64,000 bases of DNA, taken from contig NZ_JWID01000001.1 of assembly GCF_001466305.1 (NCBI RefSeq), positions 62,001 to 126,000 on the forward strand, read 5' to 3'. Shown piece after piece: positions 7,536 to 61,887 of this stretch. The notes beneath the pieces were generated by a model. That model ran no database searches and was not told where the DNA came from. It worked only from the letters and a program-made list of their open reading frames with translations. How positions within the stretch are numbered: position 1 is the first letter of the stretch; each line of letters starts with the position of its first letter. The DNA is from Defluviitalea phaphyphila (GTDB lineage: Bacteria > Bacillota > Clostridia > Lachnospirales > Defluviitaleaceae). Both the position numbers and the translations under genes were made by a program.

Positions 7536-7800
7536 CAAAAAACTCCGTCCCCATAAAAAGGGACGGAGTATAATCCGCGTTACCACCCTAATTCCTACAA
7601 AAGTAGGCTCTCAAAACCCTTAACGGAGGTTAACCGATATTTCTTACTAAAACTTCAGAAATATAGCTCCAGTGGGAAATTCGATAATGAAAGAACCTGA
7701 GAATGCTTTCAGCCTTTGACATTCTCTCTCTGAAGGGATTTCATTATCTACTTTTAGCTTAAAAGCTAACACACCTTCATAGCCTTTAATATTTACTTAC
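7536..7800 (-). promoter_or_regulatory. T-box leader (Phe) controlling pheST
   Basis: On the minus strand the leader contains the T-box motif AGGGTGGTAACGCGGA (7574-7589). It is followed by a 10-bp terminator hairpin (7542-7551 with 7560-7569) and a run of U. In stem I the paired segments GATAATGAA and TTCATTATC flank an internal loop with AGTA on one side and GAATTTC on the other. The UUC there (7676-7678) is the expected Phe specifier codon. Uncharged tRNA-Phe would pair with the specifier and T-box and prevent termination. Confidence 0.93.
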
Positions 7801-53391: not shown

Positions 53392-54402
53392 TTATTTTTC
53401 TATAGCAGCTTTTATTTCATCCAGCATTATTTTTGTTCCTTTTAAACCTCCTGGTGATACATACCAAACTTCAGGGTCTACATATATGATATTATCATTT
53501 TTATAAGCTTTAGTTTTTTTAACTATTTCATTATCAAACATTTCCTTTGTACTTATACTTCCACCACTAATAGCTGTTTTATCAACAATGAAGATATAGT
53601 CTGGATTTTGTTCTAATATATATTCAAAGGAAATATTTTGTCCATGGGTACTAGTTTCTATATTTTCAGCTACTTGTTTAAATCCAAACTCTGTATAAAT
53701 CATACCAAATCTTGAATCTTCTCCAAAGGCACTCATTGAACCATCATTAGCTAAAAGTACAATTGCATTTTTATCTTCTTCTTTAACCTTATTATTTATA
53801 TCTTCTATATCTTCTTTTATTTTTGCTAATTCTTGTTCAATAAAATCTTCTCTATCAAAAATTTCTCCTAAAATATTAAAATTATCAGTAATGATATCTA
53901 TATAGTCAGCTCCTGAAAGCTCTAAATATACAGTAGGTGCTATTTTAGAAAATTCTTCGTATAGTTTTGCTTGTCTTGCTGAAATAAATATAACCTCTGG
54001 TTCTAATTCAAATATTTTTTCAAAATTAGGTTCAAATAAAGTTCCTACATCTACATATTTATCATCATTAAATTTTTCTAAATAAGCTGGTATATTAGAT
54101 TTAGGCAATCCCTTTACTTCAATCCCTAACTCATCTAAAACATCTATTGTAGCATAATCAAAAACAACTATATTTTTAGGATTTTTATTTACTACTACCT
54201 CTCCTAATTTATGATTAATAGTAATTGTCTCTGGTTCTGATTCAGATTTAGTTTCTATAGCTGATGTATCATCTTTAGATTCTATATTTTCTGTAGTTTC
54301 TACTTCTATAGATTCTACACTTTCTGTAGTATTAGAACTACACCCCATAACTCCTAAGGCAAAAATTACAATTATTGATAATAAAATAGTAAGTTTCTTC
54401 AT
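53392..54402 (-). CDS. Siderophore ABC transporter substrate-binding lipoprotein
   Basis: This 336-residue protein has a lipoprotein signal ending GVMGC (Cys at residue 21), a Glu/Ser/Thr-rich linker (about 23-60) and a FatB/YclQ-like binding domain with ITINHKLGEVVVNKNPKNIVVFD and GRYDSxx-type loop replaced by DDKYVDVGTLFEPN. It captures an Fe-siderophore outside the cell. It is last in a permease-permease-ATPase-binding protein operon, the same order as yclNOPQ of Bacillus. Confidence 0.9.
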   Translation of the reverse strand: MKKLTILLSIIVIFALGVMGCSSNTTESVESIEVETTENIESKDDTSAIETKSESEPETITINHKLGEVVVNKNPKNIVVFDYATIDVLDELGIEVKGLPKSNIPAYLEKFNDDKYVDVGTLFEPNFEKIFELEPEVIFISARQAKLYEEFSKIAPTVYLELSGADYIDIITDNFNILGEIFDREDFIEQELAKIKEDIEDINNKVKEEDKNAIVLLANDGSMSAFGEDSRFGMIYTEFGFKQVAENIETSTHGQNISFEYILEQNPDYIFIVDKTAISGGSISTKEMFDNEIVKKTKAYKNDNIIYVDPEVWYVSPGGLKGTKIMLDEIKAAIEK

Positions 54403-54430
54403 TTTCTTCCCTCTTTCGTAAATTTTTTAA

Positions 54431-55186
54431 TTAATAATATACGCATATTTTATTATTTTTGATATCATATATATCAAATCCTATATCATAAATATCTTCT
54501 AAAATTTCTCTCTTTATTATTTCTTTCACCTCCCCTTCCTTAGCAATTTTTCCATTCTTTAAAATAACAATATAATCTGAATAGCAGGAAGCAAAATTAA
54601 TGTCGTGAATAACTATAGCTACTGTTTTCCCTAATTCATCAACTAATCTTCTTAAAGTCTTCATAATATCTACTGAATGTTTCATATCTAAATTATTAAG
54701 AGGTTCATCTAAAAGTATGTATTCTGTATCTTGAGCTATAACCATAGCTATATAAGCTCTTTGCCTTTGTCCTCCACTTAATTGATCTAAATATCTATCT
54801 TGTATATCTTCAAGTTTCATATATCTAATGGCTTCATCTACTAATTCCCAATCTTTAGATGTAAGTTTTCCCCCTGAATAAGGAAAACGTCCAAAACTTA
54901 TTAAATCTCTAACAGTAAGTCTTATATTAATATGATTAGACTGTTTTAAAATAGCTACTTTTTTAGCTAATTCCTTAGTATCCCAAGAACTTATTTCTTT
55001 ACCGTCTATAAAAACTTCTCCTTCATCTTTTCCTATAATTCTACTTATTATAGACAATATAGTGCTCTTTCCTGCTCCATTAGGTCCTATAAAAGAAGTA
55101 ATCTTTCCTTTTTTTAATTTAAAACTAACATCATTAACAACTTTATTATCTCCATATTTTTTTACTAATTTTTTTGCTTCTATCAC
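54431..55186 (-). CDS. Siderophore ABC transporter ATPase (FecE/YclP-like)
   Basis: This 251-residue ATPase has Walker A GPNGAGKST, signature LSGGQRQRAYIAMV, Walker B EYILLDEPLNNLD and the H-loop IHDINFAS. It powers the two FecCD-type permeases encoded upstream, and its start overlaps the second permease by 4 bases. In the YclP subgroup the substrate is a catecholate siderophore such as petrobactin; here this is inferred. Confidence 0.93.
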   Translation of the reverse strand: MIEAKKLVKKYGDNKVVNDVSFKLKKGKITSFIGPNGAGKSTILSIISRIIGKDEGEVFIDGKEISSWDTKELAKKVAILKQSNHINIRLTVRDLISFGRFPYSGGKLTSKDWELVDEAIRYMKLEDIQDRYLDQLSGGQRQRAYIAMVIAQDTEYILLDEPLNNLDMKHSVDIMKTLRRLVDELGKTVAIVIHDINFASCYSDYIVILKNGKIAKEGEVKEIIKREILEDIYDIGFDIYDIKNNKICVYY

Positions 55187-56133
55187 ATTTTACCCTCCCT
55201 TAATAAGGTATGTATAAAATAAATTCCTCCAATAAAATTAATAATTACACTAATAGGGGTGGCAAAATTCATTACCCTTGAAACAATTAATTGTCCACCA
55301 ACTAAAGTAATACTACCAATTAACATAGAACCTAAAATTAAATAATAATGTTTATAAGTCTTTAGATATACTCTAGTAAGATTAACTACTAATAACCCTA
55401 AAAATATTATAGGTCCTACTAAGGCTGTAGATATAGATACTAATATTGCTGTAACAACAAGCATCTTTTTTACAACCTTTTTATAATTTACTCCTAAATT
55501 AATTGCATTTTCCCTTCCTAGAGAGATAACATCTAGGTTTGGTAAAAGCTTGTAAACATAAATTAACACTAATAATTCTACTAGAAACGCTATCCATAAA
55601 ATTTTGGAATTCATATTATTAAAACTTGCAAACATACTACTTTGTATTGATAAAAACTCATTAGGATCTATTATAAATTGCATAAATGATGAAATACTTT
55701 GAAAAAAGGTTCCTAGAACCATTCCAACTATCACTATAAAAAATACATTATGGCTTTCTTTACTAAAAAGAAATCTAAACAATATCATGGAAAATAAAAT
55801 CATAGATCCTACAGCCATAAAAAAATTCCATATTGGATTGGCACTTATTAAAGAATTAGAACCAAATATAAACACTATACAAGTTTGAATAAAAAGATAT
55901 AAAGAATCTAAACCTAATACACTTGGTGTTAATATATGATTATTAGTTATAGTTTGAAAAATCACCGACGAAAACGCTATAGATGTTCCCGTTAGTATAA
56001 TTCCAATTATTTCAGGTATACGTCTTGATAAAGCGTATTCAAAGTTTTTACTATTTAATCCTATAACAAGGAAAAATATTATTAATATTACTAATATAAT
56101 AAAGAGGAATCCTATTTTTCTTTTATTTTTCAT
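55183..56133 (-). CDS. Siderophore ABC transporter permease (FecCD family, YclO-like)
   Basis: This 316-residue membrane protein of 9-10 helices belongs to the BtuC/FecCD family. Typical are RIPEIIGIILTGTSIAFSSVIFQ (in parts), LGLDSLYLF and the late GPIIFLGLLVVNL ATPase-contact region. Its start shares one base with the stop of the other permease and its stop overlaps the ATPase start, giving tight coupling. It forms the heterodimeric channel with the 56133-57077 product. Confidence 0.92.
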   Translation of the reverse strand: MKNKRKIGFLFIILVILIIFFLVIGLNSKNFEYALSRRIPEIIGIILTGTSIAFSSVIFQTITNNHILTPSVLGLDSLYLFIQTCIVFIFGSNSLISANPIWNFFMAVGSMILFSMILFRFLFSKESHNVFFIVIVGMVLGTFFQSISSFMQFIIDPNEFLSIQSSMFASFNNMNSKILWIAFLVELLVLIYVYKLLPNLDVISLGRENAINLGVNYKKVVKKMLVVTAILVSISTALVGPIIFLGLLVVNLTRVYLKTYKHYYLILGSMLIGSITLVGGQLIVSRVMNFATPISVIINFIGGIYFIHTLLREGKM

Positions 56134-57077
56134 TATTTGTTCCTCCTTATAAGTAAATAAATAAAAATAAAGCTTCCTATTACCCCTACCGTAAGTCCTA
56201 TAGATACTTCATAGGGATATATTATTACCCGGGATATAATATCACAAATTAAAAGAAATATAGCTCCAAATAAGGATGTAGATAAAATATTTTTATTCAA
56301 ATTATCGCCTTTATATATACTAACAATATTAGGCACTATAAGACCTAAGAAAGGAATCTGTCCTACGGTAATAACAATTATAGAAGATATTAATGCCACA
56401 ATAGTAACCCCTAAATTTACTATATTGTTATATTTTAAACCTAAATTAGTAGAGAATTCTTCTCCCATTCCTGCTATAGTAAACTTATTAGCATATAAAA
56501 AAGCTATAAATACCAACGGTATGCTAATGTATAAAAGCTCATATCTTCCCTTTATAATCATAGAAAGATTTCCCTGCATCCACGCCGATATGTTTTGAAT
56601 TAAATCATATTTATATCCAAAAAAAGTTGTTATAGAGTCTATTACATTTCCCATCATTATTCCAAGAAGGGGTATTATTATTGTGTTTTTGTATTTTATT
56701 TTTTTCAAAACTCCCATAAATAAAAAACTCCCTAATAAAGCAAACAAAAATGCTATAAGCATTTTTAAAATAACATTTTGTGATGAAAATAACATTAAAG
56801 AAACTAAAATTCCAAGTTTAGCAGAATTAATAGTACCTGCAGTTGTTGGAGAAACAAATTTGTTTTGGGTTATCTGCTGCATTATAAGACCACTAACACT
56901 CATACCTATTCCTGCTACAATGATACTAATAAGTCTAGGAATCCTAGTTAAAAAAAGTATCTCTATACTATCTAATTCTAAATGATATAAATCTACTATA
57001 GATACTTCCTTAACTCCAATAAATAATGATATTGATGACAAAGCAATTAATATAAAAATTAAATATCTATTTTTCAT
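56133..57077 (-). CDS. Siderophore ABC transporter permease (FecCD family, YclN-like)
   Basis: This 314-residue membrane protein is the first gene of the siderophore operon. It has FLTRIPRLISIIVAGIGMS, VSGLIMQQITQNKFVSPTT (family hallmark) and GQIPFLGLIVPNIVSIYKG. I chose the ATG at 57077, four bases after GGAGG; the frame is open to 57113 but without a ribosome site. A Fur box lies 74-92 bases upstream, so low iron should induce the operon. Confidence 0.92.
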   Translation of the reverse strand: MKNRYLIFILIALSSISLFIGVKEVSIVDLYHLELDSIEILFLTRIPRLISIIVAGIGMSVSGLIMQQITQNKFVSPTTAGTINSAKLGILVSLMLFSSQNVILKMLIAFLFALLGSFLFMGVLKKIKYKNTIIIPLLGIMMGNVIDSITTFFGYKYDLIQNISAWMQGNLSMIIKGRYELLYISIPLVFIAFLYANKFTIAGMGEEFSTNLGLKYNNIVNLGVTIVALISSIIVITVGQIPFLGLIVPNIVSIYKGDNLNKNILSTSLFGAIFLLICDIISRVIIYPYEVSIGLTVGVIGSFIFIYLLIRRNK

Positions 57078-57150
57078 ATAACCTCCTAATTTTAAAACAC
57101 TCATTACTCCCATAGTTGCAAAATAATAAATTTATAGTATAATTTGATAT

Positions 57151-57169
57151 GAAAATGATAATTATTATT
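57151..57169. promoter_or_regulatory. Fur box upstream of the siderophore operon
   Basis: GAAAATGATAATTATTATT matches the 19-base Fur consensus at 16 positions. It lies in the divergent region between the siderophore operon and the AraC-type gene and probably mediates iron repression. Confidence 0.75.
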
Positions 57170-57294
57170 ATTTATTTTCCCTTAATTAGTATAGCATCTA
57201 TCTCATATAAAAAATTAAATATATTTAGTTTTTTATAACTAAATTAAGTTATTTTAAATATTATTCATATGATAATTAGGAGGTATATATAACG

Positions 57295-57639
57295 ATGATA
57301 GTTAGTGACAGAATATGTAATTTTCATATAAAAAGAGCTATAAAATATATGGAAAATAATTATGATAAGGATTTAAGACTACATAGCATGGCAAAATTTT
57401 TAGGATTAAATAAACACTACTTGAGTTATTTATTTAAAAAAGAAACTGGTATAACTTATTCTGACTTTGTAAATTACATAAGAATAGAAAAAAGTAAAGA
57501 ATTAATAAAAAATACTAACTTATCTATATTAGAAATAGCATTATCAGTAGGATATAATAATCAAAATTACTATACCATTGCTTTTAAAAAAATACATGGT
57601 ATCTCTCCTTTAAAATATAGACATACAGTTACATCATAA
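57295..57639 (+). CDS. Short AraC-family DNA-binding protein (HTH only)
   Basis: This 114-residue protein consists of the AraC double HTH only: KDLRLHSMAKFLGLNKHYLSYLF and LSILEIALSVGYNNQNYY followed by AFKKIHGISPLKYR. There is no ligand or receiver domain, although most AraC proteins have 250-300 residues. GGAGG lies 11 bases before the ATG. It diverges from the siderophore operon and shares the Fur-box region, so it may activate that operon. The terminator at 57668 follows. Confidence 0.88.
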   Translation: MIVSDRICNFHIKRAIKYMENNYDKDLRLHSMAKFLGLNKHYLSYLFKKETGITYSDFVNYIRIEKSKELIKNTNLSILEIALSVGYNNQNYYTIAFKKIHGISPLKYRHTVTS

Positions 57640-58635: not shown

Positions 58636-60264
58636 TTATTTAACATTATTTATACTCTGTATTACCATCAATTTTTTAAGTCTTTTCTTTAATCTAATAA
58701 CTGTATTAAATTCATGTTTTTTATAACTTATCTGTAATTCTTTAATTAATGAAAACATCATAATAATAAGAAGTATTGAAAAAGGTAGTGCCGTAATAAT
58801 TACCGCTGATTGAAGGGTTTTTAAGGCTACTTTTCCTCCAAGGAATAAAACTGATAAAGCTATAAGTCCTTCCATAGCAGCCCAAAAAACTCTTTGAGTT
58901 TTTGGAGAATCTTCTTTTCCTCCACTGGTTAAATTATCAACTACTAAAGAACCAGAATCACTACTGGTTACAAAGAATAAAACTACCGCTATAATTCCTA
59001 CAAAAGATAATACCATCTGTATAATATATGAATTATTTAAGTATTTAAACATTTCAAACATTGAAGTTGCTATATCACTATTAATGGCTTTTTCTATTAC
59101 TCCATTGTATAACTTATTAGTATAAACTCCTGAAGCTCCTAGTATTGTCATAGCAAATGTAATTATTACAGTAGGAATAATTACAGTTCCAATGGCAACT
59201 TCCCTAATAGTTCTTCCTTTAGAAATACGAGCAATAAAAGTTCCTACAAATGGAGTCCAGGTTATCCACCATGCCCAATAAAACACTGTCCAATTACCTT
59301 GCCAAGCAACATCATCAGGTTTAACTGCTGTAAATAGTCCTATATTAAAAAATTCTTTCATGTATAATCCAAAAGATGAAAAATAGGTGGACAAAGTATA
59401 TACTGTAGGTCCTATTAATAAAATGGCAAATAATAACCCTCCACTAATAAACATATTAGCTTGACTTAAAAATTTAATACTCTTTGATATTCCACTAACA
59501 ACTGATAGAGTAGCAATGCATGTTATGATTATAATTAAAGTTATTTGGACTTTATAATCCATTGGGATACCAAATACATAATTTAAACCTGAGTTAATTT
59601 GTTGAGCTCCAAGTCCTAAAGAAGTAGCTAGTCCAAATAATACTGCCAATACTGCAAAAACATCTATTATATCTCCCCATATACCAAAAATCTTATCTTT
59701 TATCAATGGATAAAAAAGACTTCTAAGAGAAAATGGTAATTTTTTATTAAAAGAAAAATATCCTAATCCTAAGGCCACTAATCCATAAATTGCCCATGCA
59801 TGAGCTCCCCAATGCATATACATAACTTTAAAATTATCAAATGTAGACCCTGTACTAAGTTCTTGTGGTATATTAAGATGATAAATAGGTTCTGCCACTC
59901 CATAAAAAAATATGCCAATACCTATTCCTGCACTAAATAACATGGCATACCATGAGAAATTACTATATTCTGGTTTAGCTTGAAACCCTCCTAAACGTAT
60001 TCTGCCAAACTTAGAAAGTCCTATAACTATTAAGAATATAAATGCTCCATTAATAGTTAATACATATAACCAGTTAAACTGTTTATTAAGAACATCATTG
60101 ATATTACTAAAAATTGTCGCAGATTTATCTGGCATTACAATAGTAAAAATTATAAATCCTAAAACTAAAAAAGCAGATACTAAAGACACAAATAAATTCA
60201 TGTCGAATCCAAACTTTTTAAAATTTCTTGACTGTAGCTTTTTACTTAAATTTTCTAACTCCAT
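58636..60264 (-). CDS. BCCT-family transporter (betaine/carnitine/choline type)
   Basis: This 542-residue carrier has 12 helices and the family's Trp-rich motifs: MHWGAHAWAIYGLVAL, the core WTVFYWAWWITWTPFVGTFIAR and FLFFVTSSDSGSL-like VLFFVTSSDSGSLVVD. BCCT carriers import quaternary ammonium compounds using Na+ or H+, or exchange them. Osmoprotection fits the Na+-rich transporter set of the window. The termini are short, without a long osmosensing tail, so osmotic regulation is doubtful. AGGAG precedes the ATG. Confidence 0.93.
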   Translation of the reverse strand: MELENLSKKLQSRNFKKFGFDMNLFVSLVSAFLVLGFIIFTIVMPDKSATIFSNINDVLNKQFNWLYVLTINGAFIFLIVIGLSKFGRIRLGGFQAKPEYSNFSWYAMLFSAGIGIGIFFYGVAEPIYHLNIPQELSTGSTFDNFKVMYMHWGAHAWAIYGLVALGLGYFSFNKKLPFSLRSLFYPLIKDKIFGIWGDIIDVFAVLAVLFGLATSLGLGAQQINSGLNYVFGIPMDYKVQITLIIIITCIATLSVVSGISKSIKFLSQANMFISGGLLFAILLIGPTVYTLSTYFSSFGLYMKEFFNIGLFTAVKPDDVAWQGNWTVFYWAWWITWTPFVGTFIARISKGRTIREVAIGTVIIPTVIITFAMTILGASGVYTNKLYNGVIEKAINSDIATSMFEMFKYLNNSYIIQMVLSFVGIIAVVLFFVTSSDSGSLVVDNLTSGGKEDSPKTQRVFWAAMEGLIALSVLFLGGKVALKTLQSAVIITALPFSILLIIMMFSLIKELQISYKKHEFNTVIRLKKRLKKLMVIQSINNVK

Positions 60265-61731: not shown

Positions 61732-61765
61732 AATATTTCTCCTTTCTAATCATAAAACATAAAAA

Positions 61766-61801
61766 ACTCCTACAAAAAATATTAATATTTTTTGTAGGAG
61801 T
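61766..61801 (-). terminator. Terminator of the fluoride riboswitch
   Basis: A 36-base perfect palindrome (18-bp arms, centre near 61783) is followed by a U run at 61760-61765 on the minus strand. Its 5' arm ACTCCTAC also belongs to the 3' end of the aptamer, so ligand binding would compete with hairpin formation. Confidence 0.8.
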
Positions 61802-61840
61802 CATTAGCATTATGCGATTCAGGTGAACTCCATCACCATT
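61795..61840 (-). promoter_or_regulatory. Fluoride riboswitch (crcB motif)
   Basis: On the minus strand the aptamer shows GGTGATGGAGTTCACC (61822-61837), the conserved hairpin with the GATGG core, and then GCTAATGACTCCTAC, the conserved 3' pairing element. The order and spacing match the crcB motif. With the terminator just downstream it fits a transcriptional ON switch for the antiporter. Confidence 0.88.
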
Positions 61841-61858
61841 TATTAAATTTACTAATAA

Positions 61859-61887
61859 ATTATAATATATTCTATAATACATGTCAA
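61859..61887 (-). promoter_or_regulatory. Promoter of the fluoride-riboswitch transcript
   Basis: A perfect TTGACA (61882-61887) and TATAAT (61859-61864) with a 17-base spacer on the minus strand put the start near 61852, just upstream of the aptamer. Confidence 0.85.

Follow-up and report, generated by a model that had tools for sequence, protein, structure and literature searches.

A fluoride riboswitch before an NHA2-type cation/proton antiporter in Defluviitalea phaphyphila, and the alternation of related antiporters with known fluoride exporters

In Defluviitalea phaphyphila, a fluoride riboswitch precedes a gene for a cation/proton antiporter rather than one for Fluc (CrcB) or CLC-F, the typical targets of this riboswitch, which are protein families unrelated to the antiporter. 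The locus lies in a stretch of 64,000 nucleotides (referred to here as the window) from an assembly of 2.54 Mb in 76 contigs that is estimated to be 100% complete. Both the riboswitch and its association with antiporter genes have been described before, and the locus is a further case with the same gene pairing as that described for fluoride riboswitch-linked Na+/H+ antiporters, the second commonest class of targets (PMC11139923). An earlier note on this DNA had counted antiporters as a minority among the targets, which calls for a correction, since they are not rare and make up about half of the targets in the same bacterial class. What sets the locus apart from other riboswitch-linked Na+/H+ antiporters is that the gene stands alone in a genome without a detected Fluc or CLC and belongs to a clade that alternates with the known exporters.

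On the minus strand, between 61887 and 60544, promoter, fluoride aptamer, terminator, ribosome site and antiporter gene follow one another in that order (Table 1). The earlier note had proposed a promoter, a crcB-type aptamer and an overlapping terminator directly before the gene, and all three are recovered, the promoter with full agreement to the consensus, the aptamer by cmscan and the overlap as a shared pseudoknot strand. The match to the Rfam crcB model, expected at 61795-61840, extends slightly further on both sides, spans the full model (positions 1-64 of 64) with E = 5.7e-13 in the window, and is the single RF01734 match in the whole assembly. As read from the sequence, the P1 loop pairs with the 3' strand to give the H-type pseudoknot of the family. 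The 5' arm of the terminator, GACUCCUAC, includes this same ACUCC strand, and because both structures need it, aptamer pseudoknot and terminator are mutually exclusive, which couples the expression platform to the aptamer. A U tract (T6) at 61766-61761 follows the terminator stem, and the 96-nt leader folds with -29.8 kcal/mol (z = -6.96), a value that none of 200 shuffles equalled. Upstream, the stop codon of a diguanylate cyclase gene (5TMR-GGDEF) lies 16 nt before the promoter, while the antiporter reading frame begins about 34 nt beyond the terminator stem. Directly behind the antiporter lies a BCCT betaine-type transporter gene (58636-60264, minus strand) with a perfect promoter of its own at 60377-60349 and a TG before the -10 box; the antiporter is therefore probably transcribed alone.

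Table 1. Features of the riboswitch-antiporter locus, with coordinates in the window.
Feature	Position	Strand	Basis or remark
Promoter, TTGACA (61887-61882), 17-nt spacer, TATAAT (61864-61859)	61859-61887	-	12 of 12 consensus positions
Fluoride riboswitch aptamer (RF01734)	61788-61846	-	cmscan, 56.4 bits (gathering threshold 34)
Aptamer P1	61837-61834/61825-61822	-	present in predicted fold
Aptamer P3	61815-61813/61809-61807	-	present in predicted fold
Aptamer pseudoknot	GGAGU 61831-61827 with ACUCC 61801-61797	-	pairing read from sequence
Intrinsic terminator	61765-61802	-	17-bp stem, 4-nt loop; stem covaries across 18 leaders
Ribosome binding site, AAAGGAG	61739-61745	-	read from sequence
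NHA2/SLC9B-type cation/proton antiporter, 395 aa	60544-61731	-	PF00999, E = 1.5e-44, 152.8 bits

The arrangement is predicted to be a fluoride ON switch that acts by antitermination. RNA polymerase would start at the consensus promoter, and without fluoride the terminator would capture the pseudoknot strand of the aptamer and stop transcription before the antiporter gene, whereas with fluoride the Mg-F-bound aptamer would keep that strand and the antiporter would be made. The B. cereus crcB riboswitch has the same aptamer and the same antitermination layout, and in that case fluoride binding stabilises the pseudoknot and delays nucleation of the terminator (PMC10687018); in contrast to it, the riboswitch described here has a P3 reduced to 3 bp, with UAA as its loop, and controls an antiporter instead of crcB. 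The leaders of related genes point in the same direction. Of 53 riboswitch-antiporter leaders from relatives, at least 35 carry a terminator that overlaps the pseudoknot strand, as judged by a simple scan. For 18 leaders of GACTCCTAC type, 82 of the 90 cells that represent the first five stem pairs beyond the aptamer are paired, whereas a control with shuffled partners averages 49 and never exceeds 68 in 5000 trials. Since many different base pairs make up the paired cells, this part of the terminator stem covaries strongly, and the antitermination mechanism is therefore under selection in relatives of the locus. The earlier proposal that fluoride blocks termination thus agrees with the mutually exclusive structures and with their retention among relatives.

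Among solved structures, human NHA2 is nearest to the antiporter both by sequence (phmmer, E = 4.5e-42) and by fold (AlphaFold model with a pLDDT of 90.8, best PDB match with a TM of 0.87), which together with the Na_H_Exchanger domain places the protein in the NHA (SLC9B) family. E95, D158, D159, R313, K341 and T343 align with residues assigned to the ion site and the salt bridge in NHA2. The DD motif (D158/D159) and the Glu-Arg pair (E95-R313) occur in at least 97% of 76 related sequences, in which K341 and T343 are nearly invariant as well, and the PKAT motif is likewise shared with NHA2/SLC9B2. Apart from its regulation by a riboswitch, the protein differs from NHA2 in lacking the N-terminal extension and in carrying Tyr338, present in 75 of the 76 clade sequences, where NHA2 has Trp456 beside the Glu-Arg pair. 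Being a PF00999 protein, it has neither the CLC fold nor the motifs of CLC-F (GNNLI/GMGLI, GREGT/V, GEVTP). NHA2 is an electroneutral exchanger of Na+ or Li+ for protons that was found not to transport Cl- (PMC8850199), and the kept DD motif, E95-R313 and K341 favour retained cation/proton exchange in the bacterial protein.

The note had also stated that no crcB/Fluc or CLC-F gene is present in the window; this was borne out and extends to the whole assembly, in which neither CrcB/Fluc (PF02537) nor a CLC of any kind (PF00654) has a match; a missed exporter was rejected on this ground. How antiporter, riboswitch and known exporters are distributed among relatives was surveyed in 393 genomes of 90% completeness or more from the same class, which were searched for the riboswitch, the antiporter (E <= 1e-40), CrcB, CLC and CLC-F. 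The survey yielded 71 antiporter matches in 67 genomes, and for 54 of the 71 RF01734 lies 40-341 nt upstream on the same strand. Altogether, 109 riboswitches above threshold were found in 90 genomes, about half of them preceding an NHA2-type antiporter, and 50 of the 53 genomes with a riboswitch-antiporter pair have no second riboswitch. On a tree of 76 antiporters, riboswitch-linked members are found in all parts and those without a riboswitch are scattered, which does not correspond to one clean gain or loss. Riboswitches missed before the 17 unlinked antiporters were sought again at 15 loci; 13 of these gave none, while a weak candidate (19.9 bits) precedes the antiporter at L062 and a riboswitch lies 2.4 kb upstream at L068. 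A conserved downstream operon partner was looked for as well; none was found and the idea was rejected. Among 12 loci from named genomes, RF01734 lies upstream of the antiporter in nine, including Tissierella, Acetivibrio mesophilus, Clostridium punense, Erysipelatoclostridium, a Peptostreptococcaceae, a Fusobacteriaceae and a Spirochaete. The riboswitch also precedes the antiporter in Acetoanaerobium noterae. In Peptoclostridium acidaminophilum (L194, 2320-4143) the order is fluoride riboswitch, CBS-domain gene and antiporter, and the CBS regulator may act on the antiporter.

Antiporter and known exporter, the latter defined as CrcB or as a CLC-F with its three motifs, rarely share a genome. 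CrcB occurs in 2 of the 67 antiporter genomes compared with 83 of the 326 others (p = 6e-6), and known exporters together in 3 of 67 compared with 92 of 326 (p = 6.7e-6). When the CLCs of antiporter genomes, except that of G327, were read for the three CLC-F motifs, only G266 had them. The three exceptions (G266, G328 and G383) form one long-branched, diverged subclade of the antiporter tree, outside of which no antiporter was seen together with a known exporter in the 67 genomes. The alternation reaches down to narrow groups: in 12 families with both antiporter and CrcB a genome is shared only in G328 and G383, and in seven of nine genera with both, the genes are in different species. Counted by genus, the overlap (9 of 53) does not fall significantly below expectation (p = 0.15), in contrast to co-occurrence in the same genome (2, p = 7e-6), and shared ancestry could lie partly behind the alternation. 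Small or incomplete genomes were rejected as its cause, because genes for CLCs of any kind are not depleted in antiporter genomes (34 of 53 versus 149 of 340). Within riboswitch genomes an exporter is found in 3 of 54 versus 30 of 36, a comparison that looks stronger but presupposes a riboswitch, which has to have some target, and is not relied on here. About 60% of the class genomes lack both the antiporter and an identified exporter, so being without an exporter is not rare in the class.

The count depends on what is accepted as CLC-F. Taking every CLC for a CLC-F was rejected, since most CLCs in antiporter genomes are of the chloride type (GSGIP/GREGP) or without CLC-F motifs. Five antiporter genomes encode a CLC (L133-L137) with 45-50% identity to CLC-F that shows GNDLI or GNDLV, GREGA and GEVIP; if all five are taken for exporters, the exclusion test weakens to p = 0.005. 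In these five, GNDLI/GREGA/GEVIP replace GNNLI/GREGT/GEVTP, and none of the five genes, all of which were read, lies beside a detected riboswitch. A further borderline CLC, with GREGV/GEVVP, is found in G306.

Taken together, an ordinary fluoride ON-switch whose antiporter target is a stand-alone fluoride-resistance gene, replacing Fluc or CLC-F, is the reading that is cautiously preferred. The antiporter would take the place occupied in related species by Fluc (CrcB) or CLC-F, would most likely still swap a cation of the Na+ or Li+ class for protons, and could protect by resetting the cytoplasmic pH together with the pH gradient that drives HF accumulation. The lack of a known exporter in the genome and the alternation among relatives lend support to the guess of the note, namely a possible main role for the antiporter in fluoride tolerance. 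Since a genome has either an NHA2-type antiporter or a known exporter and rarely both, the antiporter may suffice alone, and if it does, this would explain many fluoride-sensing anaerobes without a recognised exporter. The antiporter is accordingly a good candidate for a fluoride-resistance protein that is predicted to replace the known exporters in related anaerobes. In the literature searched, which excluded preprints and most subscription journals, nothing was found on an alternation of the NHA2-type clade with Fluc/CLC-F, nor any study of how a fluoride-linked antiporter from this family functions.

A less probable reading makes the antiporter clade a third family of fluoride exporters next to Fluc and CLC-F: an NHA-type carrier would have acquired the ability to move fluoride, either by itself, together with protons or coupled to a cation. 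The antiporter is the sole target of its riboswitch, without operon partners, and its link to the riboswitch, seen in 54 of the 71 surveyed cases, is tight when compared with about 15% of Flucs and 30% of CLC-F that are riboswitch-regulated (PMC11139923). Its alternation with CrcB within the same families and genera resembles the mutual exclusion of Fluc and CLC-F, which holds in most genomes (PMC11139923). Also in favour of this reading is Tyr338, which nearly the whole clade has at the position of NHA2 Trp456. On the other hand, the cation site formed by D158 and D159, the Glu95-Arg313 pair and Lys341 are kept as in NHA2, for which Cl- transport was excluded. We know of no case of halide transport by an NHA fold. 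That the riboswitch-linked NHA2-type antiporters represent a third dedicated family of fluoride exporters, one that repeatedly replaced Fluc/CLC-F in Clostridia and occurs in Fusobacteriota and Spirochaetota too, is put forward tentatively, the extension to the latter two phyla coming from single riboswitch-linked homologues.

An accessory role, in which the antiporter only restores the pH after HF entry while an unrecognised protein elsewhere in the genome exports fluoride, appears improbable. It corresponds to the standard view in the literature, where Na+/H+ antiporters are seen as helpers in pH homeostasis (PMC11139923), and in C. difficile an NhaP-type antiporter indeed shares a riboswitch operon with a CLC-type gene (PMC11477304). 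An accessory should, however, co-occur with exporters, whereas the antiporter is anticorrelated with them and overlaps only in the one diverged subclade, and with a single riboswitch per genome no other riboswitch-controlled gene is left in 50 of 53 genomes. The alternation therefore fits a stand-alone resistance role better than that of a pH helper. Finally, a chance resemblance or a decayed, functionless riboswitch, for which nothing speaks except the usual possibility, is refuted by the score of the match in the window, the conservation of the aptamer in orthologous leaders and the covariation of the terminator stem.

Several further observations concern other loci. Two fluoride riboswitches (L123 and L121) lie near genes that look enolase-like by eye, in genomes without exporter or antiporter (G196 and G080). 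In the window itself, a T-box leader at 7556-7772 (minus strand, 121.1 bits) precedes a gene read by eye as the phenylalanyl-tRNA synthetase alpha chain and is an ordinary tRNA-sensing switch. An iron-siderophore-type ABC transporter cluster at 53392-57639 (binding protein, ATPase and two permeases, named by eye) adjoins a gene for an AraC-type regulator on the opposite strand. On the Klebsiella plasmid NZ_CP129736.1 (L196, 4001-4552), a fragment that covers the C-terminal half of an antiporter homologue (49% identity) adjoins the resistance gene rmtB. Fragments of this kind are present on hundreds of plasmids from enterobacteria (337 plasmid records), and the fragment may mark the donor of the rmtB element.
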